From Clostridiales bacterium (lineage in GTDB: Bacteria; Bacillota; Clostridia; Lachnospirales; Lachnospiraceae): 52,245 nucleotides of DNA. Under the pieces are notes generated by a model. The model made no database searches. It had not been told where the DNA came from and worked only from the letters and a program-made list of their open reading frames with translations. This document shows positions 12,357-41,493 of the stretch, in pieces (position 1 is the first letter of the stretch; each line of letters begins with the position of its first letter). The stretch covers positions 1 to 52,245 of the forward strand of contig JAQXIM010000051.1 of NCBI GenBank assembly GCA_029007785.1, written 5' to 3'. The translations under genes were made by a program, and so were the position numbers.

Positions 12357-13892
12357 TTACCTGCGGTCTTCCTGTATATCTCCATTCTGAATATGCTTAT
12401 GAATCAGCGTTTCCGCATATTTCCATACCTGAGGCGCTCCTTCCCAGGTACTTCGGTTCCGGTTCAGAATCTGAGCTGCCGTTACCTTGTGTTCCTTCCA
12501 TGCATCTCCATTAGTCGCATCATTCAGAAGAATGGGCTGAACCCGATCCATAGTATTGGCAAATTTTGCTTCCGGTGTTTCCTTTTTCTCAAATTCTTCC
12601 CAGACAGCTCTCATGGATTCTGCCTGCGGCCGGGGAAGGATACCAAATAAACGATTGGCTGCGGCTTCTTCCCTCTGGCGTTTCGTGGCATTTCCCTCTT
12701 CATCATAGGCATACGTATCACCGGCATCAATTTCCACCACATCATGAATCAGTACCATGGTCAGAACCTTTGTCAGATCCAATGGTACCTCGGCATAATC
12801 CGACAGAATAATGCTCATAACCGCAAGATGCCAGGAATGCTCTGCATCATTTTCCTTCCGCTGATCTCCGGTAATATATGTCTGCCTCTGAATCTGTTTC
12901 AGACGATCCAGTTCCAGAATAAAATCCATTTGTGACTGGAGTTTTTCATTTTTTTCTTTCTCTGTCTCCCTTTCCACATAAGGATTCACATGAACCATGC
13001 AGTGTTTTACATCTTCAAATTCTTCCTCAATGGCATGGTGAACCTTTTCTGCTATCCGGTGAGTTTCCTTCAGGGTACGTTCACCGTCTGCACTAATTTC
13101 CAGATCCACATAAACCCGGGATCCAAAAACCCTGGTTTTCAATTCGTCGATTCCACGAACCCCCTCCTGACGGAGAACCAGTTTCCGTATTTTTGCCACA
13201 TCCTTCTCATCCCAGGCTTCATCGGTCATCTTTCTTACTGCATCCAGAAAAATATCTGCTGCTGCTTTGATGATAAAGGCACAGATGACAATACTGGCCA
13301 CCGGATCGAGAACAGGATATCCCAGTCTGGCACCGCAAATACCGGCAAAACTGCCAATGGAAGACAGAGCATCGGAACGATGGTGCCAGGCATCCGCCAT
13401 CATAGCTCCGGATTTGATTTTTTTTGCTGCACTTCTTGTATACCAATACATGGATTCCTTCACTACAATAGAAATCACTGCCGCTGTCAGAGCAAGCAGT
13501 CCAGGTATTACAATATTCAGCTCTCCCCGAAAACTCTGCATGATCTTTTCAATACCGGAAATACCAATTCCCACACCGGTCAAACCCAGCATTACCGACA
13601 GAAGAATCGCGGCAACACACTCCAGCCTTTCATGACCGTAAGGATGTCTTCGATCCGATTCTTTTGAAGATATTTTGACACCGATGATAACAATAAAGGT
13701 ACTGAGTACATCGGAAGCCGAATGAACACCATCGGAAATCATAGCTCCGGAATGGGCGATAATACCGGCAAACAATTTGAATACAGATAAAAGGATATTC
13801 ACCACAATGCTGTATCCTGACACCCTCATAGCAATCCGTTCATTCTCAGACACATTTCTCTTTTTTCGATTTGCTGTTGCTTTTTGTTCCAT
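12357..13892 (-). CDS. Cation diffusion facilitator fused to an HD-domain phosphohydrolase (YfbR-like)
   Basis: 511 residues in two parts. Residues 1-305 are a CDF efflux protein: six hydrophobic segments, the TM2 metal site SDGVHSASD (D54, H57, D61), the TM5 site HHRSD (H170, D174), and a C-terminal ZT-dimer domain (about 220-305). After a short charged linker, residues ~320-511 form an HD_3/COG1896 domain with AEHSWH (H352), HDVVEIDAGDT (H383-D384) and a late Asp in NTMDRVQP (D449), matching the four metal ligands of the nucleotidase YfbR. The CDF half should export a divalent metal; the HD half should hydrolyse a nucleotide-like phosphate using one. The reading frame is continuous and AGGAGG precedes the ATG. 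The Ni/Co riboswitch upstream suggests Co/Ni as the exported ion. Confidence 0.9.
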   Translation of the reverse strand: MEQKATANRKKRNVSENERIAMRVSGYSIVVNILLSVFKLFAGIIAHSGAMISDGVHSASDVLSTFIVIIGVKISSKESDRRHPYGHERLECVAAILLSVMLGLTGVGIGISGIEKIMQSFRGELNIVIPGLLALTAAVISIVVKESMYWYTRSAAKKIKSGAMMADAWHHRSDALSSIGSFAGICGARLGYPVLDPVASIVICAFIIKAAADIFLDAVRKMTDEAWDEKDVAKIRKLVLRQEGVRGIDELKTRVFGSRVYVDLEISADGERTLKETHRIAEKVHHAIEEEFEDVKHCMVHVNPYVERETEKEKNEKLQSQMDFILELDRLKQIQRQTYITGDQRKENDAEHSWHLAVMSIILSDYAEVPLDLTKVLTMVLIHDVVEIDAGDTYAYDEEGNATKRQREEAAANRLFGILPRPQAESMRAVWEEFEKKETPEAKFANTMDRVQPILLNDATNGDAWKEHKVTAAQILNRNRSTWEGAPQVWKYAETLIHKHIQNGDIQEDRR

Positions 13893-14059: not shown

Positions 14060-14114
14060 AAAAAAGACATGAAATCTACGGAACAAGAGAACTGTCCCGC
14101 AGATTCCATGTCTT
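14060..14114 (-). terminator. Regulated terminator of the Ni/Co riboswitch
   Basis: Minus strand: AAGACATGGAATCTGCGG pairs with CCGTAGATTTCATGTCTT and is followed by six T. The left arm contains the 3' part of the aptamer (AATCTGCGGGACAG), so aptamer folding and this terminator exclude each other. Metal binding should therefore turn expression on. Confidence 0.85.
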
Positions 14115-14183
14115 ATCTCATCCATGTCCTTTATCTGCTGCTGTAATCAGCCCGGCTACGCATACGCTGCCTGATCAGTTTGT
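14088..14183 (-). promoter_or_regulatory. NiCo (czcD) riboswitch aptamer
   Basis: Read on the minus strand, the leader contains ACTGATCAGGCAGCG, then GTAGCCGGGCTG, then AGCAGCAGAT, an insert, then AATCTGCGGGACAGT. These blocks match, in order, the conserved segments of the NiCo riboswitch as I know it (CUGANCAGGCA, GCAGCCGGGCUG, CAACAGAU, AUCUGUGGGACAGU). Outer stem P1 pairs AACTG with CAGTT. The variable P4 loop is longer than in the crystallised example. It lies directly upstream of a cation efflux gene, with a promoter 5' and a mutually exclusive terminator 3'. Known NiCo riboswitches are on-switches for Co2+/Ni2+ exporters. The rest of the 504-base gap is the gene leader (13893-14059) and the divergent VanW promoter. 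Confidence 0.88.
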
Positions 14184-14217
14184 ACTGTAGTTTCTCGCAG
14201 TGCAAAGAGATATAGAC

Positions 14218-38102: not shown

Positions 38103-39647
38103 TTAATAAATTTGACAAATATTTACGTGATTATAGAAGAAAGACAGAATATCCAGATAAGTATATCCTGCCTGATCCATCCCTTTTGCCCCATCCTGAC
38201 TCATTCCCACACCATGTCCAAAACCTCCGCCGCATATTTTCCAGCCTTCTGTTACTTTCTCCAAATAAAAATATGCACTGGGTAAAATGGACATTCCCTT
38301 GGATTCCGACCCGTCATTCCGAACCAGGGGGCAGGATGTCGATCCCAGAAATCGGCGGATTTTGTCCTGACCTGTCACAGAAAAACTTCCTGTATCACCC
38401 ACAACTTCCAATTCTTCCGCACATCCGCTGGCCGCTCGTTTCGTAACAGAAAGAGACTGAATCGTTCCGATTTGATCCGCTTTCTCACTTCCCAACCATT
38501 CTTTTGTCAGTTCCCCCAAACTTTCTGCGCTTCGCATCGTATTCCATCGAAAATACAGTGCATCCTGATCCCAGCTGGAGGGCTTCCCTTCCAGAAAACG
38601 GCGAAAATCCAGCTCTTCCGAAAGATCGATGACCTGACGGTCTGCATCCTGGGAATGGGCCGCAATCCAGCCGCAGGAATCGGCAGCGCCGCCCCATATG
38701 GAAAAGTCTGCACCATATCCATAGGAAGTGGAATAGTAAAAGGCTTCTGCAATCTGTCCTTCCCATACGAGAACCTGCCCTTTTGTCTCACGGACAGCCA
38801 GGGATGCCTTTTCTCCGTATTCCTGATTATTATAGACCTGACAGGATGTACTATCGTCCACATCTGCTCCATACTTTGTATATTTTTCGCTGCTTTGACC
38901 GCTGCAGCAATAACTTCTGGCACATACAGCCTGAGCCTTTAAGGCTTCCTCTCCATAGGACTCCGGCATTTCTCCGGCAACCACCCGTTCCAGATATGTT
39001 TCCAGAGAGAGGGAATTCACCAAAGCAATGCCATCTTCATAAAGAGCAGCCGTTACTTTTCCCGGGTAATCGGGATGACCGCAGGCCCGATCCACATTGG
39101 GAAAAAGAATTCCTTCTTCTCCATAAAAGGTGACAGAACCATTCCGTTCACGAAGAAATTCCTCTGTCACCTCCACTTCACTTCCCGCTTTCAGAAGTTC
39201 TGCTGAGGATCCATCCGGATTCTCCATAATAAAAGGGCCATCGGAAGTGACCAGGACTTTTTCATGAAGAAGGGAGCGATAATCCGACGTTTTGATCAGG
39301 ACACGGATTTCCGGCGAGCCATCTGACAAAAGCTGTCGGCTCAGCCGATAGGAAGAAAAATTTCCCGTCTCCACTGATATTCCTCCCCACTCATTATCTC
39401 TTTGATAGGATTCTTCCAGTACGTCTTCCCGGAAAGAACCTGTGCTGCCTTGTGCTGCAGGATTCTCCGTCTTTTCCTCTTCAGACATTTCCTCTGCCCA
39501 TAAACCGCAGCATTCTGCACTTTCCGCCATTTCCCGGGTAATCCCTGCTTTCTCCCACACTGTCTGGGACTTTTCTCTGTGGATCAATGTCACCAGCATC
39601 AGAGCAGCCAGTCCCACGATGAATCCCAACCTGGCTTTCCGTCTCAT
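38103..39647 (-). CDS. SpoIID/LytB-domain protein
   Basis: 514 residues from the ATG at 39647 (GGAGG upstream). The N-terminal membrane anchor or signal is RLGFIVGLAALMLVTLI. The SpoIID domain lies centrally: SLETYLERVVAGEMPESYG with the likely catalytic Glu, EALKAQAVCARSY, YYSTSYGYGADFSIWGG, and the C-terminal FGHGVGMSQDGAKGMDQAGY. SpoIID is a lytic transglycosylase that thins septal peptidoglycan during engulfment; paralogues act in vegetative wall turnover. The long N-terminal extension rich in Glu/Ser is more than B. subtilis SpoIID has, so this may be a paralogue rather than SpoIID itself. Confidence 0.85.
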   Translation of the reverse strand: MRRKARLGFIVGLAALMLVTLIHREKSQTVWEKAGITREMAESAECCGLWAEEMSEEEKTENPAAQGSTGSFREDVLEESYQRDNEWGGISVETGNFSSYRLSRQLLSDGSPEIRVLIKTSDYRSLLHEKVLVTSDGPFIMENPDGSSAELLKAGSEVEVTEEFLRERNGSVTFYGEEGILFPNVDRACGHPDYPGKVTAALYEDGIALVNSLSLETYLERVVAGEMPESYGEEALKAQAVCARSYCCSGQSSEKYTKYGADVDDSTSCQVYNNQEYGEKASLAVRETKGQVLVWEGQIAEAFYYSTSYGYGADFSIWGGAADSCGWIAAHSQDADRQVIDLSEELDFRRFLEGKPSSWDQDALYFRWNTMRSAESLGELTKEWLGSEKADQIGTIQSLSVTKRAASGCAEELEVVGDTGSFSVTGQDKIRRFLGSTSCPLVRNDGSESKGMSILPSAYFYLEKVTEGWKICGGGFGHGVGMSQDGAKGMDQAGYTYLDILSFFYNHVNICQIY

Positions 39648-39793
39648 ATTTCCTCCGAAAAACATTATTCCAGGCGTCTGCCTCTTAACCCCCGATCAAG
39701 GGACTTGTCCGCCTGTTCTTCCAATAATGTATGATCGGAGTTGTATTTTTAACACAACTTCACTCTTCCTGTTTTCAACAGCTTTTGACCAGC

Positions 39794-39822
39794 AAAAAAT
39801 CCACTCCTGAAAAAGTCAGGAT
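39794..39822 (-). terminator. Second, weaker terminator after the structured RNA
   Basis: Minus strand: TCCTGA, loop CTTTT, TCAGGA, then GTGGATTTTTT. It follows the stronger UUCG-loop terminator by about 12 bases. Confidence 0.55.
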
Positions 39823-39833
39823 TTTTCGCAACG

Positions 39834-39859
39834 AAAAAAGGAAGCCGAAGCTTCCTTTT
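39834..39859 (-). terminator. Terminator of the structured RNA
   Basis: Minus strand: AAGGAAGC, UUCG tetraloop, GCTTCCTT, then TTTT. A textbook factor-independent terminator immediately after the RNA. Confidence 0.9.
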
Positions 39860-40033
39860 CCTCCAGAATGCCGTCCCCGCTTTTGAGTCCTAGCAGAGCT
39901 AGGTGGGTAACCGCAGCCGTTCTTCAGCCTTCCACTGACAAATGGTGGCCTGACATCCAACCGGCGATATAGGAATCCCGTAAATCAAAATGTAGGTTCA
40001 AAATAACAAGGTAACGTACATCCCAGAATATGC
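39858..40033 (-). ncRNA. ssrS: Structured RNA, probably 6S RNA (SsrS)
   Basis: About 175 nt, no credible ORF. Long closing stem: GGGAUGU-CGU near the 5' end pairs with ACGGCAUUCU at the 3' end, then CCUUGU with GCGGGG, UUUUGA with UCAAAA, and CCUA with UAGG. Next comes a large open bubble. A terminal arm pairs GCCG..UU with AACGGC and ends in CCAC/GUGG. A hairpin CCUAGCUCUGCUAGG can form in the 3' side of the bubble. The closing stem GAUGU.CG / CGGCAUU echoes the conserved closing stem of E. coli 6S RNA, which binds the sigma-70 holoenzyme. The main alternative is another conserved clostridial RNA such as the raiA motif. A terminator follows directly; the promoter is not clear. It accounts for much of the gap 39648-40179. 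Confidence 0.68.
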
Positions 40034-40034
40034 G

Positions 40035-40070
40035 AAAACAGATGCAATTTCTCATGTTCATCTCTGTTTT
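40035..40070 (-). terminator. Hairpin after the deo operon
   Basis: Minus strand: AAAACAGAGATG and CATCTGTTTT around a 14-base loop, with a partial T-run; about 110 bases after the pdp stop and just before the structured RNA. Confidence 0.5.
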
Positions 40071-40179
40071 CTTATCATTTCCAAATTGAAGTTTTTCATT
40101 CGAAAAATTTTTTCCAATCTTTGCAGGAACCATTCTATTTTTCCCGCATCACAGTTCGTAGTATAGCACAGATTTCTCA

Positions 40180-41493
40180 TCACGACAAGGGATTTTTGAT
40201 AATCGAGTAGATCAAAGGTTCCCCCTTTGGCTTCATGTCATCGAAGGAAAGGCTGTCTAACAAGCGTTTTTCCGCAGGATTTTTTCTGCTTTCATCAGAG
40301 TAAAAGAATTCAGCCAAAGGATCTCCCGGCACAACATAATCCCCGCATTTTTTATATAGAAGGATTCCGGCGCCATAATCCAACACATCTGTTTTGCATT
40401 GACGGCCTGCTCCCAAAATCATGGACGCCATGCCGATACCTTCCGCATTCATCTCTGTCAGATACCCTTTTTCCTTTGATCTGACTGTATAGCGGAATGC
40501 GGCTGAGGGAAGTCTTTCCGGATCCTCCACAACAAGAGGATCTCCTCCCTGAATCCGAATCATTTCTTTCAGTTTTTCCAGGGCAGCTCCGCTTTTCAGG
40601 GCATTCTTTACCACCTGCATACTTTCTTTCTCGTCTGCACAACCGCAAAGAATCAGCATCCGGGAAGCCAGGGCCAGACATACCTCCGTCAAATCTTTCG
40701 GTCCGCGTCCTTTGAGAACTTCAATGGCTTCCTTCACTTCCAGTGCATTTCCAACGGCATTTCCCAAGGGGATATTCATATTGGAAATTACTGCTTCCAT
40801 TTTCCGTCCGGCCCGTGTACCTATGTGTACCATTAACTCTGCCAGAATTGCTGCTTCCTTTGGTGATTTCATAAAAGCACCGCTTCCGGTTTTCACATCC
40901 AGAAGAATCGCATCGCTTCCTGCTGCCAGCTTCTTACTCATAATAGAAGAAGCAATGAGGGGAATACAGTCCACCGTGGCAGTGACATCTCTCAGTGCAT
41001 ATATTTTCTTATCCGCAGGCACCAGATTTCCCGACTGACCGATTACACTGAGACCGCAGGTTTCTACCGCATGAAAGAATTCTTCTCTCGTCAGGGCAGT
41101 CTGAAAACCGGGAATGGATTCCAGCTTATCAATGGTTCCTCCCGTATGTCCCAGACCGCGGCCAGACATTTTCGCCACTTTTCCTCCACAGGCAGCCACC
41201 AGGGGAGCAACAATCAGCGTAGTCTTGTCGCCAACGCCTCCCGTACTGTGCTTATCCACTTTGCATCCGGAAATGGCAGATAAATCCATGGTATCGCCGG
41301 AATGTTCCATCTCCATGGTAAGTTCAAAGGTTTCTTCCTCTGTCATTCCCCGGAAACAAATGGCCATGAGCATTGCTGCCATCTGATAATCCGGAATCTC
41401 CCCTTCCACGAAACCCATAACCATGTCATGAATTTCCTCATGACTCAGGGACTCACCGCGTTTCTTCTTCTCAATCAACTCATACATTCTCAT
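40180..41493 (-). CDS. pdp: Pyrimidine-nucleoside phosphorylase
   Basis: 437 residues. It splits thymidine, uridine or deoxyuridine with phosphate into base and (deoxy)ribose-1-phosphate. The signature SGRGLGHTGGTIDKLESIPG and the phosphate loop KHSTGGVGDKTTL are present. GGGAG lies 6 bases before the ATG. Last gene of the deoB-deoC-cdd-pdp operon, whose products feed deoxyribose-1-phosphate to DeoB and DeoC. It could equally be named deoA. Confidence 0.95.
   Translation of the reverse strand: MRMYELIEKKKRGESLSHEEIHDMVMGFVEGEIPDYQMAAMLMAICFRGMTEEETFELTMEMEHSGDTMDLSAISGCKVDKHSTGGVGDKTTLIVAPLVAACGGKVAKMSGRGLGHTGGTIDKLESIPGFQTALTREEFFHAVETCGLSVIGQSGNLVPADKKIYALRDVTATVDCIPLIASSIMSKKLAAGSDAILLDVKTGSGAFMKSPKEAAILAELMVHIGTRAGRKMEAVISNMNIPLGNAVGNALEVKEAIEVLKGRGPKDLTEVCLALASRMLILCGCADEKESMQVVKNALKSGAALEKLKEMIRIQGGDPLVVEDPERLPSAAFRYTVRSKEKGYLTEMNAEGIGMASMILGAGRQCKTDVLDYGAGILLYKKCGDYVVPGDPLAEFFYSDESRKNPAEKRLLDSLSFDDMKPKGEPLIYSIIKNPLS

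Follow-up and report, generated by a model that had tools for sequence, protein, structure and literature searches.

The window analyzed here, a 52,245-nt stretch of contig JAQXIM010000051.1 from a Lachnospiraceae bacterium (assembly GCA_029007785.1), carries on its minus strand an element that is most likely a standard 6S RNA gene, a normal copy from an uncultured relative of gut Clostridia. 6S RNA is a small bacterial RNA that holds back the main RNA polymerase when growth slows. The element is preceded by a deoA-like gene and followed by a gene for a SpoIID-domain protein, and the Pfam matches of these two genes fit the position beside deo genes and a SpoIID-like gene that a first-pass annotation of the letters alone had proposed. 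The features of the locus are collected in Table 1.

Table 1. Position, strand and basis of assignment of the features at the 6S RNA locus (window coordinates)
Feature	Position	Strand	Basis
SpoIID-domain protein, downstream neighbour	38103..39665	-	Pfam PF08486, 97 bits
Terminator-like hairpin GGAAGC-UUCG-GCUUCC + U6	39834..39855	-	sequence; fold
6S RNA (ssrS/bsrA type), 177 nt	39856..40032	-	RF00013 match, fold, covariation in 35 copies
Hairpin, 3' side of central bubble, CCUAGC-UCU-GCUAGG	39889..39903	-	fold
Second UUUUGA, possible collapse-helix strand	39985..39990	-	constrained fold
Putative product-RNA template, 5'-UAUUUUGAACCUAC-3'	39992..40005	-	register with B. subtilis product RNA
Putative 5' leader of 6S precursor, ~120 nt	40033..40153	-	follows from candidate promoter
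Candidate sigma-A promoter TTGTCG-17-TATACT, TG before second hexamer	40160..40188	-	consensus scan, 9/12
Pyrimidine-nucleoside phosphorylase (deoA/pdp-like), upstream neighbour	40180..41493	-	Pfam PF00591, PF02885, PF07831

A full-length match to the 6S RNA family

To classify the element, we compared the window with all 4227 Rfam families, and only one match above its cut-off covers the region: RF00013 (6S RNA), with 72.7 bits (gathering score 46.4 bits; E 1.7e-12 for the whole window) and an alignment that spans model positions 1-187 of 187. A permissive Rfam search of 39700-40200 returned 10 further matches, every one below its own cut-off, and a tRNA and tmRNA search of the window found none. 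The first-pass annotation had placed a structured RNA at 39858-40033, which is right to within two bases of the match (39856-40032, minus strand), and its leading guess, 6S RNA, is supported by the score; the RF00013 search that it had proposed ended in a full-length match to a structured-RNA model. Compared with the 6S/SsrS family as modelled by RF00013, the element is alike in its full-length match, its length and its three-part structure, and no departure was found; its relatives score from 29.8 to 87.9 bits, and the 72.7 bits fall inside that span.

We put at about 0.96 the probability that the locus is a 6S RNA gene, the only one detected in this Lachnospiraceae bacterium, and that it resembles 6S-1 of Bacillus subtilis. 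What the analysis shows directly is membership in the family by sequence and structure, along with covariation, a near-invariant template sequence and a terminator-like hairpin. The class of the element is thereby settled as a member of a family of global polymerase regulators and not an unknown RNA; it brings no novelty in RNA class, being an ordinary 6S RNA by sequence, structure and setting.

Fold, covariation and conservation

The minimum-energy fold has three parts, a closing stem, a central bubble whose 3' side forms a small hairpin, and a terminal arm, in agreement with the long closing stem, open central bubble and terminal arm described earlier; the three-part 6S architecture is found both in this fold and in the pair counts of 35 aligned copies. 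The alignment comprised 35 family copies out of 60 matches, with the order-level copies and one weak match (G014, 32.2 bits) excluded, and its paired columns were those of the fold of the window's own copy after removal of one isolated pair. Standard pairs fill 83.7% of the pair cells, and a slide of the partners by one to three columns lowers this to 35.9-48.2%. Covariation scores 0.203, compared with a shuffled mean of 0.162 (0/500 shuffles reach 0.203) and at most 0.134 for slid partners, in a control that favours structure, as the fold is taken from one of the aligned sequences and the shuffles ignore relatedness. Changes on both sides occur in 19 pairs, a count that a slide of -3 equals, and 67 of the 500 shuffles have at least as many further pair types. 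The folding energy of the 6S segment lies within chance (z -1.50; 14 of 200 shuffles at least as good) and was dropped as evidence for 6S, not being significant; the above-chance support is the covariance-model match together with the covariation in the 35 family copies.

At each of 62 columns, 33 or more of the other 34 copies are in agreement, and the window's copy follows them at 59. Of its three departures, two (columns 6 and 198) make up a single closing-stem pair, changed jointly from C-G to U-A. The six-pair hairpin on the 3' side of the bubble (helix 9) is paired in 100% of cells. The consensus fold of the alignment adds a stem of three pairs between columns 40-42 and 59-61, within the 5' bubble; for B. 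subtilis, a passage of PMC8876501 describes weak 5'-bubble pairing that was predicted and that probing did not confirm.

The same source, in the part that deals with the free RNA, gives B. subtilis 6S-1 (bsrA) a hairpin in the 3' side of its bubble, and the predicted free fold of the window's RNA has this hairpin as well. For E. coli 6S (ssrS), whose overall architecture is alike, it describes the 3'-side hairpin as forming upon product-RNA synthesis (PMC8876501, same excerpt), whereas the hairpin of the window's RNA is already present in the predicted free fold.

A near-invariant putative template for a product RNA

The register of the B. subtilis product RNA suggests that the product RNA of the window's 6S would start opposite C41 (39992), would begin GUAGGUUC and would read 5'-GUAGGUUCAAAAUA. 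An extract of PMC8876501 gives the B. subtilis 6S-1 product RNA as the 14-mer GUUCGGUCAAAACU; the predicted product is in equal register and matches it at 9 of 14 positions, differing at five, and its AAAA at positions 9-12 keeps the register of that product as given there. Judged by sequence, the template lies in the 5' bubble with its start beside an adenine (C41-A42). This base after C41, A42, fits the conserved start-adjacent adenine that, in the section of PMC8414754 at hand, is listed with AA at positions 9/10 and GG at 4/5 among the features of 6S RNAs of lactic acid bacteria and reference species. The predicted product carries both the AA and the GG, the latter being described in that section for Gram-negatives and thus a point of comparison with E. 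coli 6S.

Across the 35 copies, mean identity is 0.989 in columns 33-45, a block made up of 12 of the 14 template positions and the adenine beside them (A42), against 0.657 in columns 46-58 and 0.867 in the 5' strand of the closing stem; the remaining two template positions, the last ones, are variable. The 12 nearly frozen positions could be used to probe gut metatranscriptomes for product RNAs.

Terminator-like hairpin, candidate promoter and leader

A hairpin resembling an intrinsic terminator abuts the 3' end of the 6S match, and the fold of 39826-39862 reaches -15.2 kcal/mol (z -2.85). A consensus terminator scan did not list the hairpin at 39834-39855, perhaps because A/U pairs extend its stem into the U run.

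On the 5' side, a consensus scan found three sigma-A-like sites in 701 bases, against 1.0 expected. The TTGTCG-17-TATACT site lies about 120 bases upstream of the 6S RNA, overlaps the stop codon of the deoA-like gene (40180-40182) and, judging from its sequence, is the likeliest 6S promoter (40188-40160). Within 150 bases upstream of the window's 6S RNA the scan gave only a poor site, with a score of 7.5 that 79 of 100 shuffles matched. We surveyed promoters at 51 loci, of which one had too little upstream DNA, and found a sigma-A-like site scoring at least 9 within 60 bases of the 6S RNA at 41 of the 50 loci scanned; for 29 of these 41 sites, no more than 5 in 100 shuffles of the site's own stretch scored as well, and the other 12 are less clear. 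Eight further loci or genomes (G001, G007, G008, G017, G018, G030, G056 and L054) had no such site either.

One of these, L054, an uncultured Lachnospiraceae contig, carries upstream of its 6S RNA a matching stretch, CTGTGCTATACTA..ACTGTGA, with its TATACT about 33 bases from the 6S RNA (score 8.5; 23 of 100 shuffles as good). With the TATACT so near in L054, it looks as if the promoter was retained and the leader in the window grew by roughly 90-95 bases relative to L054. The putative leader (40033-40153) has no match in 20 relatives and no second copy in its own genome, and on these grounds we rejected the idea that it is repeated or shared; for 40022-40153 the folding energy gives z -1.46, which is not significant.

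Distribution and genomic neighbourhood

The RNA is the sole 6S match in its own genome (2.35 Mb in 149 contigs, 97% complete). Among 61 genomes, comprising its own, 10 of the genus, 26 of the family and 24 of the order, 57 have a 6S match at E <= 0.001 and 55 one over the cut-off; three carry two copies, and four have no 6S match, one of them being 97% complete. In an order-level relative (G056), two matches stand in tandem, 51 bases apart (C13:340673-340848 and 340900-341075; L003/L048). A family-level genome listed as 100% complete (G014) has only a weak match, below the cut-off (L046, 4405-4590, 32.2 bits), possibly a strongly diverged 6S RNA. An exact 40-base 6S pattern found nothing in a collection of genome contigs from which the window's own records may be left out, and a degenerate pattern of the 6S core found six stretches, four from Lachnospiraceae and two from Candidatus Copromonas, which NCBI places in the Lachnospiraceae.

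Gene order at L054 (deoB-deoC-cdd-deoA-6S-spoIID) is the same as in the window. Within the fetched flanks, which differ in length and in some cases end at contig ends, a SpoIID relative lies downstream on the same strand at 15 of 50 loci (counting that of the window), and a deoA or cdd relative lies upstream in 10 of the 11 genomes of the genus (again with its own).

Alternative readings of the locus

The first-pass annotation had hedged its guess by allowing another class, for example a raiA-motif RNA, and what spoke for that motif was only its impression that the segments GGATGTCAGGCC and GGTTACCCACC were unusually specific. Both turned out to be ordinary, as they fall within the majority consensus of the 35 family 6S copies. 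The raiA-model search that it had proposed gave no match: RF03072 finds nothing in 39700-40200 at E up to 10, nothing in the window's own genome at E <= 0.001 and nothing at that threshold among the 61 genomes (its own and 60 relatives). The two genome searches were uninformative alone, because no control genome matched, and a class-wide positive control was therefore added: among 196 genomes of the class, 34 gave matches of 119-200 bits with the model. With a model that works elsewhere in the class and no match in the region, the genome or the 61 genomes, we exclude the raiA motif, whose probability we regard as negligible. It is extremely unlikely, too, that the region is not a free RNA but part of an mRNA, whether as an element at the 3' end of the deo message or as one in the 5' leader of the SpoIID-like gene. 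Its position between deo and SpoIID-like genes of the same strand would suit such an element, but upstream deo-type genes were found only in genomes of the genus (50 loci, with flanks of differing length), whereas the RNA spans the order; moreover, a terminator-like hairpin follows the 6S RNA, and the match is to a family of free RNAs (RF00013).

A 6S gene that has fallen silent in its own genome through a decayed promoter would explain why the best site within 150 bases is poor when 41 of 50 loci have a site scoring at least 9 within 60 bases. We nevertheless consider silence very unlikely, given that the RNA is intact at 59 of 62 strongly conserved columns, with two of its three changes compensating each other, and that its fold is intact, its terminator-like hairpin is present and it is the only 6S copy found in the genome. 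Upstream there is also a promoter-like site, for which L054 has a counterpart, and eight other loci or genomes share the missing nearby site, which makes its absence weak evidence of decay. The preferred reading remains an ordinary 6S RNA gene.

Proposed mode of action and a possible release switch

By analogy with characterized members of the family, from which expression, polymerase binding, product synthesis and release are carried over, the 6S RNA would be transcribed from 40188-40160 by way of a leader of about 120 nt and would fold like an open promoter. As growth slows, it would presumably occupy the sigma-A RNA polymerase holoenzyme and so lower transcription from ordinary promoters. 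Once nucleotides are available again, the polymerase would copy the short product RNA opposite C41, and this product would open the adjoining stem, refold the 6S RNA and free the polymerase. Among other Clostridia, 6S RNA of C. acetobutylicum gave strong Northern bands, according to an excerpt of PMC3879012, and for C. phytofermentans, another Lachnospiraceae member, a 6S RNA appears in a supplementary-file legend of PMC5171806.

How the refolding might proceed was explored in a constrained fold. The motif UUUUGA is present twice: the copy at 39998-40003, which a product RNA would occupy, pairs in the free fold with UCAAAA, and the other, at 39985-39990, lies in the bubble. When the 14 template bases are blocked, UCAAAA (39881-39886) pairs fully with the second UUUUGA in six pairs, at a cost of 2.8 kcal/mol relative to the free fold; shuffling the 12-base segment also gives six pairs in 9 of 500 cases. 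This possible collapse of the central bubble resembles the helix that an excerpt of PMC8876501 describes for B. subtilis 6S-1, but at least four such pairs are predicted in only 6 of the 35 Lachnospiraceae family copies, and we therefore rejected the collapse helix as a feature of the family. One could still imagine that in this 6S RNA the swap of the UCAAAA strand from the stem to the six-pair helix, as the product RNA is made, acts as a built-in release switch, and that the RNA arises from a distant promoter as a long, lineage-specific precursor with a leader that could tune processing; we think that this idea probably does not hold and offer it as tentative.

Elsewhere in the window, a NiCo riboswitch (RF02683, 60.3 bits) lies at 14090-14188 on the minus strand, about 200 bases before an open reading frame of the same strand (12357-13892) whose 511-aa product combines a cation-efflux transporter and its dimerisation domain with a C-terminal HD_3 / YfbR-like phosphohydrolase domain.
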